Source of the DNA: Deltaproteobacteria bacterium
GTDB taxonomy: Bacteria > Myxococcota_A > UBA9160 > PR03
Length of the DNA: 64,000 bases
Direction: 5' to 3'
Assembly: GCA_035063765.1 (NCBI GenBank)
Contig: JAPSFT010000009.1
Span: 1-64,000, forward strand
The translations under genes were made by a program, and so were the position numbers. The notes beneath the pieces are model-generated. The model was not told the DNA's origin. It saw only the letters and a list, made by a program, of their open reading frames with translations, and did no database searches. Positions 9,718 through 22,600 of the stretch are shown here, piece by piece (the first letter of the stretch is position 1; each line of letters starts with the position of its first letter).

Positions 9718-9721
9718 TCAA
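9693..9721 (-). promoter_or_regulatory. Sigma-70-like promoter directed at zinc-ribbon gene
   Basis: TTGACT (9721-9716), a 17-nt spacer and TACAAA (9698-9693) read on the minus strand. The -35 begins at the ccmD stop codon. Transcription would begin near 9686, about 400 nt before the zinc-ribbon start codon. Confidence 0.5.
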
Positions 9722-9888
9722 CCGGAATTTCGCGCTCGGAGGCGGTCCCGATGCACGTCGGCGGACCCTGGGCGCCGTGCCCCGGCCGCGAGCTCCCGGC
9801 CCAGCCGCCGGCGCTCCCGGACGAGGTGGCCGAGGTACAGCAGGACCACCGCGAACGAGAGCCCGTAGGCCGCGATCACGTAGCCCAC
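9718..9888 (-). CDS. ccmD: Heme exporter subunit CcmD
   Basis: A 56-aa protein with one hydrophobic helix (about residues 2-22, VIAAYGLSFAVVLLYLGHLV) followed by an Arg/Glu-rich cytoplasmic segment (RERRRLGREL). This is the usual CcmD plan: a small membrane protein that helps release holo-CcmE from the CcmABC complex. GTG at 9888 lies inside the end of ccmC (13-bp overlap). Its position directly after ccmC supports the call, since CcmD has little sequence conservation. Confidence 0.8.
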   Translation of the reverse strand: MGYVIAAYGLSFAVVLLYLGHLVRERRRLGRELAAGARRPGSADVHRDRLRARNSG

Positions 9889-10610
9889 CGGCCCTCCTCG
9901 TCGGCACCCCGACGGGCCTCGGCCTGCTCGGCGAGCCGCGCCCGGAGGCCCTCGACCTCGACGCGCCGCACGAGCAGGTGGGCGAAGGCGGCCAGGGTGG
10001 TCAGCACCCCGAGCAGGAAGGGCAGGCCCATGCCGGCGCCGAGGCTGTCCCCGGCCAGGTTGTCGGGATGCATGGCGCGGCCACCCGACAGCTCGATCGC
10101 GAAGTAGTTGAGCGGGATCACGGCGAGCCCGGCGATCCCGTAGACGGCGGCGAAGCGTGCCGCCCGCTCGCTGCCCTCGGTGAAGCTGCGCAGGAGCAGG
10201 TAGGCCAGGTAGGCGAACCAGAGCAGCAGCGTGATCGTGAGCCGCAGGTCCCAGGACCACCAGCGCCCCCAGGTGCCGCGCGCCCAGATCGGGCCGGTCA
10301 GGATCATCAGCGTGCAGAACAGGACGCCGACCGCCGCCGCCGAGCGGGCCAGCCGGTCCCAGGCGTCGTCGCCCCGCCACAGGAAGAGCGCGCCGCCGAC
10401 CGCGGTCAGCGCGAAGCCGAGGTAGGCCGCGAAGGCAAGCGGGGGGTGCAGGTAGAGGATCTTCTGGATGACGCCCTGCACGGCATCCTCGGGGGCGCGC
10501 ACGACGGTCGCCATCCAGAGCGCGGCGAGGCCCGCCAGGAGCCAGGCCGTCGGCGCCCGCAGGCGCGCGGCGATCCGGTCCACGGCCGGGTCCGGCGTCC
10601 GGGCAGCCAT
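9876..10610 (-). CDS. ccmC: Heme exporter CcmC
   Basis: A 244-aa inner-membrane protein with six predicted helices and the tryptophan-rich periplasmic motif (GTWGRWWSWD) that presents heme to CcmE. Conserved periplasmic histidines appear in LHPPLAF and in a second loop (AMHPDN). It acts with CcmA, CcmB and CcmD. The gene lies 25 bp after ccmB in a minus-strand operon and overlaps ccmD. Confidence 0.95.
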   Translation of the reverse strand: MAARTPDPAVDRIAARLRAPTAWLLAGLAALWMATVVRAPEDAVQGVIQKILYLHPPLAFAAYLGFALTAVGGALFLWRGDDAWDRLARSAAAVGVLFCTLMILTGPIWARGTWGRWWSWDLRLTITLLLWFAYLAYLLLRSFTEGSERAARFAAVYGIAGLAVIPLNYFAIELSGGRAMHPDNLAGDSLGAGMGLPFLLGVLTTLAAFAHLLVRRVEVEGLRARLAEQAEARRGADEEGRWAT

Positions 10611-10635: not shown

Positions 10636-11301
10636 TCACTCGTCGAGCACGTACTCGAAGCCCAGGAACGAGACGATCCCGAACACGCCGTCCGTGACCA
10701 CCAGGAGCTGGACGGCGCGCCAACGTAGCGTCCCCGTCTCGAGGAGGCCCGCCGTCGCGTCGACCGCGCCGAGCAGCACCGGCACGAGCAGCGGCAGCAG
10801 GAGCAGCGGCAGCATGACCTCGCGATAGCGGGTCCGCACGGCGATCGCGCCGAAGAGCGTGCCGACGGCGCACAGCCCGATCGAGCCGAGCGCCACGACC
10901 GCGGCGAGCCGGCCGGCGATCGCGCCGAGGTCGACGCCGAAGGCCAGCGCGAAGACCACCGCGGTGGCGGCCTGGACGGCGCCCAGGATCACCAGGTTCG
11001 CGGCCGCCTTGCCGAGGAAGACGAAGCCGCGGTCGGCCGGCGCGAGCGCGAGGCCCGCGAGCGCGTCGTTCTCGAGCTCGAGGGCGAAGGCGCGGTCGAG
11101 GCCGAGCAGCGCGGCGAAGACGTAGGCGACCCAGAGCAGCCCGGGCGCGAGCCGGCGCGCCTCTGCGGCGTCGCGCGCGGGCAGCGCGAAGTGCAGCACG
11201 AGCACGACCAGGAACGCGAACACCGCCATCGCCACCACGCGGTCGCGGCTGCGCCACTCGGTGACGAGGTCCTTCCAGAGGATCGCGAGCACGACGCTCA
11301 T
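10636..11301 (-). CDS. ccmB: Heme exporter permease CcmB
   Basis: A 221-aa membrane protein with six helices, the ABC permease that pairs with CcmA for ATP-driven release of heme-loaded CcmE. A conserved cytoplasmic N-terminus (ILWKDLVTEWRSRD) and ALELENDALAGL are typical of CcmB. ATG at 11301 gives the usual family length; an upstream in-frame ATG at 11334 would overlap ccmA and adds a charged non-conserved segment. Confidence 0.94.
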   Translation of the reverse strand: MSVVLAILWKDLVTEWRSRDRVVAMAVFAFLVVLVLHFALPARDAAEARRLAPGLLWVAYVFAALLGLDRAFALELENDALAGLALAPADRGFVFLGKAAANLVILGAVQAATAVVFALAFGVDLGAIAGRLAAVVALGSIGLCAVGTLFGAIAVRTRYREVMLPLLLLPLLVPVLLGAVDATAGLLETGTLRWRAVQLLVVTDGVFGIVSFLGFEYVLDE

Positions 11302-11343
11302 GCGCGAGGATCCCGAGCGCTCACGCGAGAACATCGAGGGGCG

Positions 11344-12081
11344 TCAAGCCGCCGGGCCCGCCGCGCGCCAGGCGGCCTCCAGCGCCGCGGCGGAGGGCGG
11401 GGCGCCCGCGGAATCGAAGGCCACTCGCCCGCGCACCAGCAGCAGCGCGCGGTCGCCGAGCGCCGCGGCCTGGGCAAGGTCGTGGGTCACGAGCACGACC
11501 GCGCGGCCGGCGGCGGCGAGCGCGCGCACGCGCGCGGCGAGGCGATCGGCCGAGGTCGGGTCGAGGCCCGTGAAGGGCTCGTCGAGCAGCACCACGGGCG
11601 GATCGTGCACGAGCCCGCGGGCGATCGCGAGGCGCTGGGCCTGGCCGCGCGAGAGCGATCCGGCCGGCCGCGCGGCGAGCCCGTCGAGCCCCTGCTCGGC
11701 GAGCAGGATGTCGGCACGCCGCCCGGGGTCCGCGACCCCGTAGAGCCGCCCGGCGAAGGCCAGGTTCTCGCGCGCGCTCAGGTTCGGGTAGAGCAAGGTC
11801 GCGTGGCCGACGTAGCCGACCCGGCCGCGCACGCGGCGCCGGTCGCCACCGGCGGCCGGGCCGATCCGCACGCACCCGGCGCTCGGGCGCGCGAGCCCGG
11901 CCAGCAGGCGCAGGAGCGTGCTCTTGCCGGCGCCGTTCGGGCCGAGCACGGCGAGCACGCTGCCCGCCGGGACCGCGAAGTCGAGCCCGGCCAGCGCCAC
12001 CACCGGGCCGAAGCGCTTCCCGAGGCCTTCGGCGGCGACCGCGACGGCCCTCGGGGCCATCGGGCCGGCCGCCTCGCTCAA
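11344..12081 (-). CDS. ccmA: Heme exporter ATPase CcmA
   Basis: ABC ATPase of 245 aa: Walker A GPNGAGKST (47-55), signature LSRGQAQRL, Walker B VVLLDEP, and a switch histidine in LVTHDLAQ. It powers the CcmABCD complex. TTG at 12081 overlaps the upstream stop (TTGA) and has GAGGTG about 5 nt before it; ATG at 12060 (seven codons later, after a GAGGCGG) is an equally plausible start. The neighbouring ccm genes give the assignment, since the ATPase alone could belong to other exporters. Confidence 0.93.
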   Translation of the reverse strand: MSEAAGPMAPRAVAVAAEGLGKRFGPVVALAGLDFAVPAGSVLAVLGPNGAGKSTLLRLLAGLARPSAGCVRIGPAAGGDRRRVRGRVGYVGHATLLYPNLSARENLAFAGRLYGVADPGRRADILLAEQGLDGLAARPAGSLSRGQAQRLAIARGLVHDPPVVLLDEPFTGLDPTSADRLAARVRALAAAGRAVVLVTHDLAQAAALGDRALLLVRGRVAFDSAGAPPSAAALEAAWRAAGPAA

Positions 12082-14011
12082 GCAGACACCTCGCGCGCGG
12101 GATCCGCTGCGAGGGCGGCGCCGCAGCGCGAGCAGAAGCGATCCCCGGCCCGCGTCCCGGCGCCGCAGGCGCCGCAGGCGGGGGCTTGCGCGGCGGGCGG
12201 AACGACCGCGACGGGGCCGGCCGGGGCCGCCGCCCCGCGCGCCCCCCCCGCGCGACCGTCGTCCTCGGCGCGCAGCAGCGCCGCAGCCCGGGCGCGCAGC
12301 TCCTGGCGCATCGCCGCGTAGTCGGCATCCGAGACCTTCGCGGTCTCGTGATCGTGCTCGAGATCGCGGAGCGCCGCGTAGACGGACTCGCGCTCGTGGC
12401 GCGCGGGGTCCTCGGCGGGCTCGCCCGGGCGCCCGGGGCCGGCTCCGGCCCGCCCCGCCGCCTCGCCGCTGCGCCGGATCGGTCCGCCCAGGAAGGCGAC
12501 CGCGGCGGCGGCGGCCAGCGCCACCAGCCCGTAGCGCAGCGCGCGCGGCAGCCCGGCCGGTGCGCCGAGCTGCACGAGCGCCAGCGACACCGTCTCGTCG
12601 GGCTCCACCTGGAAGGCCTCGAGGTGCAGGTAGCTGCGGTCGGGCGTCGCCACCGGGCGCCGGCGGTGCAGGCGCTCGGATCCGAAACGCAATCCGGTGT
12701 CAGCGACGAAGATCGAGAGCAGGGGCAGCGGCCGGTCGAAGCGGCGCGCGAAGACGGCGCCCGCCGCCGGGTCCGTCACGGGCAGGTGGTAGGCGATCTC
12801 GATCGAGCTCTCGCCGGGCGGCAGCGGGCCGTCGAGGACCGCCTCGCCTTCGTCGCTGGCGCGCAGGCCGCGCTCGAAGAGCGCCCGGTCGAAGCGCAGG
12901 TCGGCGGCGCCCGGCGGCACGTGGAGCGCGAGCAGCGGCTCGCCCGGGCGTCCCGCCACCGGCGCGTCGCCGGCGACCGTGAGCTTCAGCTCCTCGCGTA
13001 CCAGGAGCGCGGCGTCGTCGAGCTCGAGGAAGATGCGCGACTCCTCGAGATGCACGGCGCCGGGATCGACGCGCACGGGCGGCACCGTGAAGCCGGCCGC
13101 CAGCTCGCGTCCGGGCGCCAGGCGCTCGTGGACGAAGCGGCGCCAGCGCCGGCCGTCGATCTCGACCTCGCCCTCGTCGCGCGCGCCGGGCAGGGCCGGC
13201 GCCGGCGCATCGGCCGGGACCAGGACGACCAGGCGGCCCGCCCCGGCCGGCAGCCGCTTGCGCAGCGCCACGGCGCCCGCGGCGTCGGCCGGCACCCGGT
13301 ACTCGAACGAGAGCCCCTGGTCCTGCGCCGCAGGGCCGTCCCAGGCGGAGGGATACACGGGCCCGTAGAAGCGAACGTGCCCGTCCTCCTGGACGAGGCC
13401 CTCGGGCGCGAGGCCGAGCGGGACGTGGAACGCGCTCGCGCCGGCAGGCAGCTCGGCCCGGTAGACCGGCTGGGCGGAGCCGCGCTGCTCCGCGGGTACG
13501 TAGGCCGTGCGCGGGCCCGCGTTCGCGAGCCGGACCCGCTCGAGCACCGCGAGCTGCCCGCCGCGCGGCGTCACCCGCAGCTCCAGCTCACCCACCGACA
13601 CCGCGGAGGGATCGGGGGTCGTCTCCCCGATCCGGATCTCGACCCCGGCCTGCTCGGTCTGTCCGGCCGCGAAGGTGATGCGGGCGCCGGGATAGGCCAC
13701 GCCCGCGTGGCGCGCGCCGACCAGGTAGGCCGTCTCGGGATCGTTCGAGATGCCCTCGAAGGCGAAGGCGCCGTCCGCACCGCTCGTCGCGCGCCGCACG
13801 CCCGGCGCGCTGCCGGCGGGCAGCGCGTAGAGCATCACCTCGACTCCGGCCGCGCGGCCGGGGTCCTCGGCGTGGACGACGCGCCCGCGGATCGCTGCGG
13901 GCCCCGGCGGTACGTCGGCGACCCCGGTGGGCCGGTCGTCGTGCTGGGCCGCTGCGGGCGCCGCCGCCAGCACCGCGAGCCCCAGCGCGAGGAGCGCCGC
14001 CCGGCCCGGCC

Positions 14012-14015
<4 letters not shown>
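12078..14015 (-). CDS. Large membrane protein with zinc ribbon, in ccm operon
   Basis: A 645-aa protein of unrecognised family lying between ccmF and ccmA. A signal peptide (1-24) leads to a carboxypeptidase-regulatory/CNA-B-like beta domain (about 30-120) and more beta-rich periplasmic sequence. One membrane helix (about 492-512) follows. The cytoplasmic tail has a short helical segment (YAALRDLEHDHETAKVSDAD) like the one in CcmI/CcmH-related and zinc-ribbon proteins, then a C-terminal double CxxC ribbon (CGACG...CSRCG). The exported part contains no cysteine, so it cannot replace the thiol-redox partners CcmG/CcmH. ATG at 14015 overlaps the ccmF stop by 4 bp, so co-translation with ccm genes is likely. 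A scaffold role is only inference. Confidence 0.8.
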
Positions 14016-15982
<1,967 letters not shown>

Positions 15983-15985
15983 CGC

Positions 15986-16423
15986 TCAGTAGCTCGCCTG
16001 CTGCGCTTGCTTCGCCTCGAACTTCGAGGGGCACTTGGCCATCACGTTGTCGGCCACGAACACGGCATCGCTGCCCATCCGGCCCTCGACCACCACCTCG
16101 GCCCCGTCCTTGAACATGTCGGGCGCCGTGAGCGTGCCGTAGACGACCCGCAGGGAGTCCGGGGCGGACGCGCCCGGGGCCGCGTGCGGGGGGTCCTGCA
16201 CGACCGCGAAGCGGATCGAGCGCGCGCCCATGTCGCGCTCGATCGAGCCGGGCGCGACGTAGCCGTGGACGCGCGCCGCCCGGCCGGTGTCGGCGGCGCG
16301 GAACTCCGCGAGCGTCTGGAAGTACTGGAAGGTCCCGATCTCCTCGAGGTTGGTGGCGGCGTACCAGCCGAGGAGCACGGCGACCACGACGCCGCCGAGC
16401 GCGATCTGCAGACCCTTGGACAT
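15986..16423 (-). CDS. ccmE: Heme chaperone CcmE, Cys-variant
   Basis: A 145-aa periplasmic protein with an N-terminal anchor (about 7-24) and an OB-fold. The usual heme-binding HxxxY of CcmE is replaced: VMAKCPSKF gives C131 at the histidine position and F135 at the tyrosine position. Cys-type CcmE (CxxxY) is known from Desulfovibrio, where a Ccm system lacking CcmG and CcmH works; here even the tyrosine is changed. ATG at 16423 is chosen over an upstream in-frame start at 16606, which would run through a likely promoter region and adds basic non-conserved sequence. First gene of the ccm operon. Confidence 0.93.
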   Translation of the reverse strand: MSKGLQIALGGVVVAVLLGWYAATNLEEIGTFQYFQTLAEFRAADTGRAARVHGYVAPGSIERDMGARSIRFAVVQDPPHAAPGASAPDSLRVVYGTLTAPDMFKDGAEVVVEGRMGSDAVFVADNVMAKCPSKFEAKQAQQASY

Positions 16424-18325: not shown

Positions 18326-19140
18326 CGCGCCGCCACCACCGCGAGGGCGGCGCCGAGCGCCCAGAGCCCGAGCAGCGCGCCGCCCAGCAGGCCCGGGCGG
18401 CGCCCGCGCCAGTCGCCGCGGACCTGGATGGCGCTGGTCCCGGCGAGCAGGGTGACGCCGAGCAGCAGCAGCGGGTGGCGCGTCCGGAACGCGGTGGCGA
18501 GGAGCCAGGCGAGGAGGCTCGCGAGCCCGCCCGCGGCCGCGGCGAGCACCGGCCACAGGGCGGGCTCCTCGAAGAACACGCGAAGGTGTCGATCGCCGGC
18601 GCTGCGCGCGGGCTCGCCGGCGCGCTGCACGAGCTCGCGGACCAGCGCGACGAGCCGGCCGCTCGCCACCGTCGCGGACAGGCGATGGTCGTCGTGCACC
18701 TCGAGCAGGCGGACCCGCTCGGGCGTCCCCGTGCGCGCGAGCGTCAGGCTTGCCGCGATCGGGACCACGTCGTCGCGGGTGCCGTGCACGATCCAGACCC
18801 AGGCGTCCTCGGGAAGCCGCAGCTCGAGGCCGAGCTCGGCGCCGGCCGGGGCGAGGAGCAGGGTCGGGCCGCGCCAGAGCCCGCGCTGGAGGAGGGCGAG
18901 CGCCACCGCGCCGCCAAAGGACGAGCCCACCACGAGGTCGGGCTGGAACGCCGCGGCGGCCCGGCCGATCTGGCCCACGCAGCCCTCGAAGTCGCGCGTG
19001 TCCATCGCGGGCGTGAGCGCGTCGAAGTGCGCGGCGAGCAGGCGCGCCTTGGTGCCCTGGGGCCCGCTCTCCTGGCCGTGCACGAAGAGCACGCGCAGCC
19101 GCCCCGCGCCGGTCTGCACGCCGGCGCCGCCGCGGCTCAC
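18310..19140 (-). CDS. Alpha/beta hydrolase with C-terminal membrane helices
   Basis: A 276-aa protein. Residues about 14-185 form a small alpha/beta hydrolase resembling the YqiA/UPF0227 esterase type: FVHGQESG, a nucleophile-elbow VGSSFGGAVAL (the Ser is in GSSFG) and a late Asp/His pair (HGTRDDVVP, HDDHRL). The remaining 90 residues form about three membrane helices. This fusion is not usual for the esterase family. Last gene of the cof operon by GTGA coupling to cofE; whether it has any role with F420 is unknown. Confidence 0.75.
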   Translation of the reverse strand: MSRGGAGVQTGAGRLRVLFVHGQESGPQGTKARLLAAHFDALTPAMDTRDFEGCVGQIGRAAAAFQPDLVVGSSFGGAVALALLQRGLWRGPTLLLAPAGAELGLELRLPEDAWVWIVHGTRDDVVPIAASLTLARTGTPERVRLLEVHDDHRLSATVASGRLVALVRELVQRAGEPARSAGDRHLRVFFEEPALWPVLAAAAGGLASLLAWLLATAFRTRHPLLLLGVTLLAGTSAIQVRGDWRGRRPGLLGGALLGLWALGAALAVVAARYGIF

Positions 19141-19904
19141 CGGAACAGATCCGCCTGCGGGTCGCGCAGCAGCTCGCGCACCGTGCCGTCGCCCGAGGGG
19201 ATGGCGCCGGCGATCCAGACCGCCGGCACGCCGGCGTCCTTGCCCATCAGCAGGCCGGCGGCGGCGGCGAGCTGGTCGACCTGCGCCATCGCCGTCACCT
19301 CGAGCGGGCGGCCGGCCAGGTCGCGGCGCCCGCGCCAGTCCGCGATCGGGGCGAGGCCCGCGCTGCCGAGCGCCACGTCGACGAGCCCTTCGCGCCAGGG
19401 GCGCCCGAAGGTGTCGGAGACCACCACCCCGAGCGGGCCGTGGCCGGCGGCGAGCAGCGCCTCGCGCAGCCGGCGCGCCGAGGCGTCGGGATCCTCGGGC
19501 AGCAGGACGGCTTGGTCGGCGCCGGGCGCGTTGGAGAGATCGACGCCGGCGTTCGCGCACACGAACCCGTGTCGGGTCTCCGCGATCCAGACGCCGCGCG
19601 CGTGGCGCACGACGCGCGCCGTCTCGCGCAGCACCACCTCGACGTGGCGCGGGTCCTTGCCGTCGGCGGCGGCGATGCGCCGCGCCTCGGGCGAGGGCTC
19701 GACCGTGGCCAGCCGCACGACGCGCCCCTCGGCCTTCGAGACGACCTTCTGGGCCACCACGAGCACGCCGCCCGCGAGGCGCAGGCCCTGCGCGGCGGCG
19801 GCCGACGCGAGGAGCCCGGCGAGGTCGTCGCCGGCGCGGACGGCGGGGATCCCGCGCAGCGCGAGGAGGCGCAGATCCCCGGGCGGGGCCGGCGGCGCGC
19901 TCAC
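19137..19904 (-). CDS. cofE: Coenzyme F420-0:L-glutamate ligase
   Basis: A 255-aa CofE/FbiB-N type ligase that adds gamma-linked glutamates to F420-0 using GTP. Family blocks are clear: VVAQKVVSKAEGR, CANAGVDLSN, VVSDTFGRPWREG and GKDAG. There is no fused nitroreductase-like FbiB domain. GTG start lies inside the cofC stop. With cofC and cofD it completes the side-chain half of F420 synthesis; the FO synthase genes (cofG/cofH) are not in this window. Confidence 0.95.
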   Translation of the reverse strand: MSAPPAPPGDLRLLALRGIPAVRAGDDLAGLLASAAAAQGLRLAGGVLVVAQKVVSKAEGRVVRLATVEPSPEARRIAAADGKDPRHVEVVLRETARVVRHARGVWIAETRHGFVCANAGVDLSNAPGADQAVLLPEDPDASARRLREALLAAGHGPLGVVVSDTFGRPWREGLVDVALGSAGLAPIADWRGRRDLAGRPLEVTAMAQVDQLAAAAGLLMGKDAGVPAVWIAGAIPSGDGTVRELLRDPQADLFR

Positions 19905-20578
19905 GGGGTGCGCGCCCCGGCGCGCGGCGCCGTGCCGGGCGCGAGACCGAACGAGGTGAGGAGCGCGCGCGTGCGCGGCCCGTCGCCGGGGCCGGCCAGG
20001 AACGCGCGCAGGTCCGCCTCGTCGTCGAGGTCGAGCGCGAGCGAGGGGAGCGCGAGCTCGACGAGCGGGACGCCCGCCCGGGCGGCCGCCTCGCGGTGGC
20101 GCCGGGCGCTGTCGGGCCCGAAGCAGGAGGGGAAGGCGTCCGGGGGGCGGCGGGCGAGCGCGGCGGTGCCGCCGTCGAGCGAGGCCGCGAGCGCCGCACG
20201 CGGCGCCGGGCCGGCGGCGAGCGCTTCGAGCAGCCGCGCGAGCTCGCCGGGGCGCGCGCCGGCGACGTCGCCGAGCACCACCAGCAGGCCGTCGGCGCAG
20301 ACGGGGCCGAGCTCGCGCGCGGCGCGGGCGATCGCGGCGTCGAGGCCCGGGTCGTCGCCGCGGAGGGCGCGGGCACCCGCCCGCTCGGCCGCCTCGGCGA
20401 CGCCCGCGTCCGGCGTCACCACCGCGATCGCGTCGAGCCCGGGCACGCGCGCCAGCGCCGCCAGCAGGTCCTCGAGCATGGCGAGCGCCAGCGCCCCGGC
20501 GCGCGCGCGGCCGAGCGCGGCGGCCAGCCGCGACTTGCCCGCCGCGAGCGACTTGACCGGCACGACGGCGGCGGGCAT
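19901..20578 (-). CDS. cofC: Phospho-acid guanylyltransferase CofC/FbiD
   Basis: A 225-aa nucleotidyltransferase that activates 2-phospholactate, PEP or 3-phosphoglycerate with GTP for F420 side-chain assembly. The N-terminal VPVKSLAAGKSRLA and internal VVLGDVAG are characteristic. Which three-carbon acid it uses cannot be read with confidence. It starts 4 bp after cofD and overlaps cofE by 4 bp. Confidence 0.93.
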   Translation of the reverse strand: MPAAVVPVKSLAAGKSRLAAALGRARAGALALAMLEDLLAALARVPGLDAIAVVTPDAGVAEAAERAGARALRGDDPGLDAAIARAARELGPVCADGLLVVLGDVAGARPGELARLLEALAAGPAPRAALAASLDGGTAALARRPPDAFPSCFGPDSARRHREAAARAGVPLVELALPSLALDLDDEADLRAFLAGPGDGPRTRALLTSFGLAPGTAPRAGARTP

Positions 20579-20582
20579 CGCG

Positions 20583-21554
20583 CTAGGACGCGTCGCCGGC
20601 GATCTCGTCGGCGAGCGCGAGCGCCACGCCCGCGAGTCGCGCGGCGGCCCCGGCGTCCCGCATGATCGTGTCGACCGCGCGCGCGCGCAGGCCGAGCGCG
20701 GCGATGTCGGGTGCCTGCGCCGCGTCGCGCGCGTCGAGCACGAAGCCCTGCACCCACTCCCGGTAGAGCGCCGCCACCCCGCGCGCCGACACCTCCGCCC
20801 CGATCCCGCGCAGGAGCCGGTCCGCGGGCCCCTTGACCGGCGCGCCGCCGACGATCGGCGAGACCGCCACCACCGGGGCGCCCGAGGCCGCGATCGCCTC
20901 GCGCACGCCCGGCACCGCCACGATCGGCCCGATCGACACCACGGGGTTGCTGGGACACACCAGGATGCACCGCGCACCGCGCAGCGCCTCGACGACGCCG
21001 GGCGCCGGGCGAGCGGCGCGGGCCGCAGCGAGGTCCACGAGCTCCACCTCGTCGGGCGCGCCGTCGCGCGCCAGGTACTCCTCGAAGTGCACGCGGCGGC
21101 CCCCGCGCAGCCCGACGAAGGTGGGGCAGGGGTCCTCCGACATGGGCAGGATCCGCACCGCCACCCGGTAGGCGCGCCGCACCTCGTCGGCCACGGCCGC
21201 GAGGCCGGCGCCCTCGCGCAGCCGCCCGGTGCGGTGCAGGGCCGTGGCGAGGTCGCGGTCACCGAGCCGGAACCAGGTCGGGTGCCCGAGCGCGCCGAGC
21301 GCCTCGATCACCGAGAAGGTGTCGCCGGCGAGCCCGTAGCCCTTGTCCGGGTCGACCCGACCCGCGAGCGTGTAGGTGACGATGTCGAGGTCGGGGGAGA
21401 CGTGGACGCCGTAGAAGGCGCGGTCGTCCCCGGTGTTGACGACGGCGGTGACGGACGCGGGCGGCACCACGCGCACGAGCCCCGCCAGGAAGCGCGCGGC
21501 GCCGACCCCGCCCGCCAGGACGGCGATCGGGCGCGCCGGCTCGGCCGCGCTCAC
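20583..21554 (-). CDS. cofD: 2-phospho-L-lactate transferase CofD/FbiA
   Basis: A 323-aa enzyme that joins the GDP-activated three-carbon acid to FO. The N-terminal VLAGGVGAARFLAGL, VVNTGDD, the DPDKGYGLAGDTF block and LGDRDLATAL are diagnostic, as is CPSNPVVSIGPI in the second half. GTG start overlaps the stop of the preceding DUF4124 gene. Confidence 0.96.
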   Translation of the reverse strand: MSAAEPARPIAVLAGGVGAARFLAGLVRVVPPASVTAVVNTGDDRAFYGVHVSPDLDIVTYTLAGRVDPDKGYGLAGDTFSVIEALGALGHPTWFRLGDRDLATALHRTGRLREGAGLAAVADEVRRAYRVAVRILPMSEDPCPTFVGLRGGRRVHFEEYLARDGAPDEVELVDLAAARAARPAPGVVEALRGARCILVCPSNPVVSIGPIVAVPGVREAIAASGAPVVAVSPIVGGAPVKGPADRLLRGIGAEVSARGVAALYREWVQGFVLDARDAAQAPDIAALGLRARAVDTIMRDAGAAARLAGVALALADEIAGDAS

Positions 21555-22600
21555 GGACGCGAGACGGCGGGCTGGATCTGCGCGCGGCGCTCGCGCAGCC
21601 GCTCGAGGTCGGCCTGCAGCTGGGGCAGGCGCTGGGCGATGTCGCGGAACTTCGGGTCGTCGACCAGGGCGTCGTGGCGGGTGGCCTCGTCGGAGCTGAT
21701 CAGGCCCATCAGCGCCTCCTCGTCGCGGGCGATCTCCGCCTCCACCTCGGAGATCTGCGCGTCGAGCTTCGCGAGCTCCTCCGCCTCGTCGGGCGCGAGA
21801 TCGCGCGGGGCGGGCGCGGCGACGGCGGCGGGCGCGCTCGGCTCGGGGGCCCGCCCCACGGCCACCGCGGCTTCGGGGGCCGGTAGCCCGGGCGCGCTCT
21901 CCGCGACCGGGGCCTCTCGATCGACCGGGGCCTCGCGCCCGGCCGGGGCCGATCGGGCGGGCGCCGGATCCGGCTCCGGTGCGGGCGGCACGACGGCCAC
22001 CGGAGCACCGTCGGCCTCGAGCGGCGGCGGGGGCGGCGGCGGCGGGGCCAGCGCTGCGTCGTCGATCGCGGGCTCGGGCGCGGGCGCGGCCCTGCCAGCC
22101 GTCGCCGTCGCAGCGACGGGTGGCGCCTCGACCGGCGCCTGCGCCGGCGTCGCCTTCTCGTCTCCGAGGTCGCCCGGCGCCCAGGCCGCCTCGCCGCCCG
22201 GCGCCTCGGACCAGTCGGGCCGGGCCTCGACCGCGTGGACGCCGTCGCTCTCCTCCGGCAGCTCGACGCCCTCGGCCTCGCGCTCGCGCGGCGTCGCAGC
22301 GGCCGGCACGCCCGGAAGCGGCGCGGCGGGGCTCAGGCCCGGCGGGCCGGCATCGCTCTCCAGCCAGTCGGCACCGCGCTTGGCGCCGCCGGCCTGGGTC
22401 ACGCGATCGCGGATCGAGGCGGGGATCCGCTCGCGATCGGTCGTGTAGTGGGCGACGCCGTTCTCGTCGACCCACTTGTAGATGACGGGCGTCTCGGCGC
22501 GTGCGGTGGGGGCGGGCACGAGCGGCGCTCCGAGGGCAGCGAGGACTCCGACCGTGGCGATCAGGCTTGCCGTCGGGAGCGAGAGCCGCGCGCACCGCAT
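21551..22600 (-). CDS. DUF4124-domain exported protein
   Basis: A 349-aa protein. After a signal peptide (about 1-36) comes a DUF4124 motif (VIYKWVDENGVAHYT) at about 39-53. A long Pro/Ala/Glu-rich middle (about 90-280, including a run of eight prolines) and a C-terminal coiled coil (about 285-345) follow. DUF4124 occurs in secreted or periplasmic proteins of unknown function. The Pro/Ala linker could span periplasm or peptidoglycan. It heads the cof operon but has no obvious link to F420. A promoter lies just before its ATG. Confidence 0.88.
   Translation of the reverse strand: MRCARLSLPTASLIATVGVLAALGAPLVPAPTARAETPVIYKWVDENGVAHYTTDRERIPASIRDRVTQAGGAKRGADWLESDAGPPGLSPAAPLPGVPAAATPREREAEGVELPEESDGVHAVEARPDWSEAPGGEAAWAPGDLGDEKATPAQAPVEAPPVAATATAGRAAPAPEPAIDDAALAPPPPPPPPLEADGAPVAVVPPAPEPDPAPARSAPAGREAPVDREAPVAESAPGLPAPEAAVAVGRAPEPSAPAAVAAPAPRDLAPDEAEELAKLDAQISEVEAEIARDEEALMGLISSDEATRHDALVDDPKFRDIAQRLPQLQADLERLRERRAQIQPAVSRP

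Follow-up and report, generated by a model that had tools for sequence, protein, structure and literature searches.

The closest described relatives of the CcmE protein studied here belong to the Cys-type cytochrome c maturation (Ccm) system, which a 2011 FEBS J review of System I named System I* (PMC3601427). According to the accessible part of that review, CPSKY is found in 25 of 36 System I* bacterial genomes, the Y is replaced by F in four Cys-type CcmE proteins, and CcmH is present in about a third of the bacteria with this system. The F-types are counted there inside System I*, so Tyr is no strict requirement for membership. The same part of the review reports that a Desulfovibrio Cys-type operon yields holocytochrome c in Escherichia coli, with covalent heme on its CcmE, and that E. 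coli CcmE is functional after removal of its Tyr (citing Harvat 2009). In archaea, Cys120 of the CxxxY CcmE of Methanosarcina is required for heme attachment (eLife 2022, PMC9084895). Our literature search found no paper naming CPSKF, found CPSKY only in the 2011 review, and found no experimentally tested CPSKF CcmE.

We analyzed a stretch of 64,000 nucleotides from a deltaproteobacterial genome, called the window below. A first-pass annotation of this DNA had described a CcmE of the Cys-type in which Phe takes the place of Tyr, reading VMAKCPSKF with C131 and F135 at the positions of E. coli H130 and Y134. Our own reading of the motif and an alignment to the E. coli structures 8ce8_E and 1sr3_A bear this out. 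The annotation had also cited the CxxxY system of Desulfovibrio, which lacks CcmG and CcmH, and the literature agrees with that precedent. Its further statement that loss of the Tyr was not known from the described variant has to be withdrawn: the Phe variant is already reported, in one sentence in the accessible part of the 2011 review, with its four F cases (PMC3601427).

The ccmE gene and its operon

The ccmE gene lies at 15986..16423 on the minus strand and encodes, from an ATG start, a heme chaperone of 145 amino acids (translation MSKGLQ...VFVADNVMAKCPSKFEAKQAQQASY). The protein matched the Pfam CcmE profile PF03100 with 74.4 bits (E 1e-20; cut-off, 24.6 bits). AlphaFold2 predicted, with a mean pLDDT of 89.1, an N-terminal transmembrane helix (residues 3-25) followed by an OB-fold barrel whose last strand spans residues 122-129, and the C-terminal heme motif (129-135) comes directly past that strand. 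The best PDB matches were the CcmE structures 8ce8, 1sr3, 1lm0, and 1j6q, and CcmE of Desulfovibrio vulgaris (2kct) ranked sixth. The profile match, the membrane anchor and OB-fold carrying the motif, and the presence of ccmA, ccmB, ccmC, ccmD, and ccmF alongside place the protein in the CcmE family. The source genome has one copy of ccmE, and a degenerate DNA pattern for AKCP[S/T]KF occurred once in the window, against 0.00 occurrences expected from shuffles.

The heme-binding segment reads NVMAKCPSKFE. In the alignment, VMAKCPSKF lies over VLAKHDENY of E. coli CcmE, which puts Cys131 (codon 16031..16033, minus strand), the presumed residue of covalent heme attachment, at the position of His130, and Phe135 (codon TTC, 16019..16021, minus strand) at the position of Tyr134. 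The Cys at the covalent heme position is the defining residue of System I*; the Tyr four residues past it, which is the majority form in System I*, is missing and Phe135 stands there. Cys131 was invariant across an alignment of 61 CcmE proteins. The window protein and E. coli CcmE (HxxxY; 1sr3, 8ce8) share the fold and the position of the motif, but they differ in the two motif residues and their identity is low (24-26%). CcmE of Methanosarcina acetivorans (CxxxY; PMC9084895) likewise has Cys as the heme-attachment residue, but it retains the Tyr, and CcmD, CcmH, and CcmI are absent there.

The operon runs in the order ccmE, ccmF, orfX, ccmA, ccmB, ccmC, ccmD, with all genes on the minus strand. 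The ccmF gene for the heme lyase subunit (14012..15982; PF16327, 201.8 bits, and PF01578, 112.8 bits) encodes the WWD motif, and the four His residues expected in this protein are present. It is followed by orfX (12078..14015), a conserved uncharacterized gene, and by ccmA for the ABC ATPase (11344..12081), which was assigned by PF00005 (106.8 bits) and operon position. Next come ccmB (10636..11334; PF03379, 108.5 bits) and ccmC (9876..10610; PF01578, 115.1 bits), in whose product the WWSWD motif is accompanied by two His residues that are candidate heme ligands. The last gene is ccmD (9718..9888; PF04995, 35.2 bits, cut-off 25.6), with a putative GTG start.

Further maturation genes are found elsewhere in the source genome. 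A CcmH domain (55.4 bits) is encoded at G000:C6:135662-135967 (region L213, G000:C6:127000-146000), unlinked to the ccm operon. This protein is divergent: MSPFCPGRTLMAC replaces LRCxxC, so that the Cys pair is more widely spaced, and Actinomycetota that have a CPSKF CcmE share this form. CcmH domains were present in 57 of the 61 genomes in a sample of the window's order, source genome included, and in 13 of 15 genomes in a mixed set that was mostly Chloroflexota and Actinomycetota. At another locus (L288, G000:C4:164240-165474), a CcdA-like gene is directly followed by a gene for a thioredoxin-like lipoprotein with WCEPC, and the two products may act together as reductants in cytochrome c maturation. 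The search for canonical CcmG with TIGR00385 gave no match over the cut-off (best, 56.1 against 123.15 bits), as was also the case in many control genomes, which likewise had matches only below it. We found 17 matches to cytochrome c domains, 13 of them above cut-off, whose proteins are candidate clients.

These genes change the comparison with Desulfovibrio desulfuricans System I* (CPSKY; Allen 2006 and Goddard 2010, as presented in the accessible part of PMC3601427). The two systems have in common the CcmE fold with a single transmembrane anchor, the Cys in place of His, PSK between the motif residues (the majority form), and a CcmABCDF operon. However, that system has Tyr where the window has Phe, and it works without CcmG and CcmH, whereas here other loci of the genome encode CcmH-like, CcdA, and thioredoxin proteins. 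Absence of CcmH and CcmG is a trait of the Desulfovibrio system and is not general in System I*, and the genome of the window departs from it. The tie to CcmG/CcmH absence that the first-pass annotation had implied therefore fails: since CcmH and CcdA/WCEPC are encoded, the comparison with the CcmG/CcmH-free Desulfovibrio system is not transferable.

Distribution and evolution of the Phe and Tyr forms

The first-pass annotation had proposed counting motif types in related genomes and had named a sequencing error as grounds for discarding its claim. We looked at both in the order sample, which comprised the source genome and 60 relatives of the same order. Among 58 CcmE genes found in the 61 genomes, 57 encode CPSKF; these come from 11 families and use varied synonymous codons. 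The one remaining CcmE is His-type, carries HDETY, and lies on contig C47 of genome G030 (L002 / L209). That contig also encodes a canonical CcmH (178 bits), and the contamination of the G030 assembly is 7%; the HDETY protein is probably encoded by foreign DNA or contamination. With CPSKF in every order-typical CcmE and varied codons behind it, sequencing error and chance are ruled out.

We then scanned 284 genomes of the phylum with a DNA pattern that tolerates either Phe or Tyr and requires a CP[S/T]K-like spelling, so that other C-type and H-type CcmE proteins are uncounted. Matches came from 92 genomes, and among the matches listed the split was complete: Phe in 51 of 51 inside the window's order and Tyr in 41 of 41 outside it. 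Six of the Tyr matches belong to a different order within the class of the window, and the sister order is CPSKY. Sampled pattern matches from other phyla were mixed, with 28 Phe against 6 Tyr in Chloroflexota and 15 Phe against 4 Tyr in Actinomycetota. A Phe-pattern scan of named species returned at least 120 matches, at least 106 of which were CcmE by HMM. Among the matches listed, the Phe-form CcmE proteins came from Myxococcota/Deltaproteobacteria metagenome-assembled genomes, Chloroflexota (many of them Ktedonobacteria), Thermomicrobiota, Actinomycetota, and one Sysuimicrobiota record. The Ktedonobacteria include cultured organisms, e.g., Thermosporothrix hazakensis and Dictyobacter. Phe is thus fixed throughout the order and frequent in Chloroflexota and Actinomycetota, a distribution that is new here. 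The four CxxxF proteins in the accessible part of PMC3601427 share the Cys-type motif and the Y-to-F replacement; what differs here is the fixation across an order and the abundance in those two phyla.

Because CcmE is short, we followed the Tyr/Phe state on a tree of CcmF (61 rows) in its place; the tree came from a quick search and has a long outgroup branch. The window's order forms one clade (support 99) that is sister to the Tyr-type genomes of the same class (support 100). The state changes four times on this tree, at least three of the changes being forced by well-supported branches, in a count that is free of direction. No support emerged for horizontal acquisition of the operon from either Chloroflexota or Actinomycetota, as CcmF of the window's order falls outside the F-type groups of the other phyla. 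The repeated interchange of Tyr and Phe fits a permissive position. The clean fixation of Phe in the order, with Tyr elsewhere in the phylum, suggests that the residue matters in each background, more than would follow from a fully neutral exchange.

Heme handling by the CPSKF protein

The Tyr of E. coli CcmE is an axial ligand of the heme iron. We consider it quite likely that the window encodes a functional Cys-type (System I*) CcmE in which this ligand is not needed. The operon is complete, the CcmC and CcmF motifs are intact, the genome encodes cytochrome c domains, and the protein has the CcmE fold. That CPSKF is invariant in 57 of 57 order-typical CcmE proteins suggests that purifying selection maintains a working protein. 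On the other hand, Tyr was shown to be dispensable in a CcmE of the His-type, whereas the window protein is Cys-type.

We infer from homology that heme is carried covalently on Cys131 and delivered to CcmF. CcmABCD would load the heme, presumably through a thioether bond between Cys131 and a heme vinyl group, and the chaperone would then take it to CcmF for attachment to c-type cytochromes. The unlinked CcmH-like protein, the CcdA/thioredoxin proteins, and possibly OrfX would help in this. We likewise infer the chemistry and the consequence of Phe135 and, with less certainty, how the iron is ligated without Tyr, for which the simplest account would be that the Tyr ligand is dispensable. Most likely, this lineage does without Tyr ligation and keeps the function of CcmE. 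The iron site would then be open or hold water or another ligand, and Phe would retain an aromatic contact with the heme. If the CPSKF protein works without Tyr, natural CcmE proteins have repeatedly lost or gained a presumed axial ligand, and models of how CcmE holds and releases heme are narrowed. The Ktedonobacteria cultures with the Phe form make the question of the Tyr directly testable.

Could another residue have replaced the Tyr ligand? In the window's order, the candidates would be His53 or His80 (codon 16184..16186, minus strand), a speculative alternative heme ligand in a DPPH loop. The loop is specific to this order, where nearly all members have it, and we did not find it by alignment in the Tyr-type sister order or in other phyla. 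His80 was an attractive candidate in an alignment of 14 sequences. However, it is missing from at least three CPSKF members (L032, L047, and L051) and so is not invariant, and the CPSKF proteins of Chloroflexota and Actinomycetota have no DPPH loop. On these grounds we set His80 aside; a replacement ligand of either kind seems unlikely and would be possible in this order only.

We regard as less probable still, and in fact very improbable, that CPSKF marks a distinct chemistry of heme release, co-adapted with the divergent CcmH (MSP[FY]CPGxTLxxC) and with OrfX. F-type genomes from both the window's order and Actinomycetota encode the variant CcmH, and OrfX is common to the F-type operons of three phyla. 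Yet at least some F-type genomes of Chloroflexota/Thermomicrobiota have a CcmH with LRCPVC or LLCPVC, and the sister order has OrfX too, in operons of the Tyr type. A strict tie can be rejected, as neither partner follows Phe in every case. To the idea that this CcmE is degenerate or nonfunctional, through an assembly error or decay of the copy, and that another system matures the cytochromes c, we give almost no credence. Nothing but the missing residue, which is conserved elsewhere, speaks for it. The order-wide invariance of the motif already contradicts the idea, and the single ccmE copy, the intact operon, and the many cytochrome c domains also count against it.

OrfX and neighboring genes

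A functional CcmE that does without the Tyr ligand thus remains our preferred reading, and its operon contains one further protein, OrfX. OrfX consists of a signal peptide, a CarboxypepD_reg-like domain, beta-sandwich lobes, one transmembrane helix, and a CcmI-like cytosolic helical hairpin. In Foldseek searches, the beta-sandwich domains resembled ribophorin I and M1 aminopeptidase domains with low TM-scores. The two-helix cytosolic segment matched the CcmI model weakly, in 18 of 30 members at an E value of 0.1 or less (best, 1.2e-05). Members from the window's class have an extra zinc ribbon at the C terminus. In C-type ccm operons of the Tyr-type sister order, Chloroflexota, and Actinomycetota, the gene again lies between ccmF and ccmA.

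OrfX may stand in for CcmI. A broader proposal is conceivable, although we lean against it: the CPSKF protein would coordinate heme iron unlike both described types, with Tyr ligation dispensable across at least three phyla, and OrfX would be a new Ccm component. In this component, a CcmI-like cytosolic hairpin would be joined to a beta-sandwich ectodomain (ribophorin I/M1 aminopeptidase-like) in place of TPRs, presenting apocytochrome to CcmF.

Upstream of the ccm region, at 19137-22595 on the minus strand, lie open reading frames that, from reading alone, look CofE-, CofC-, and CofD-like (coenzyme F420 biosynthesis).
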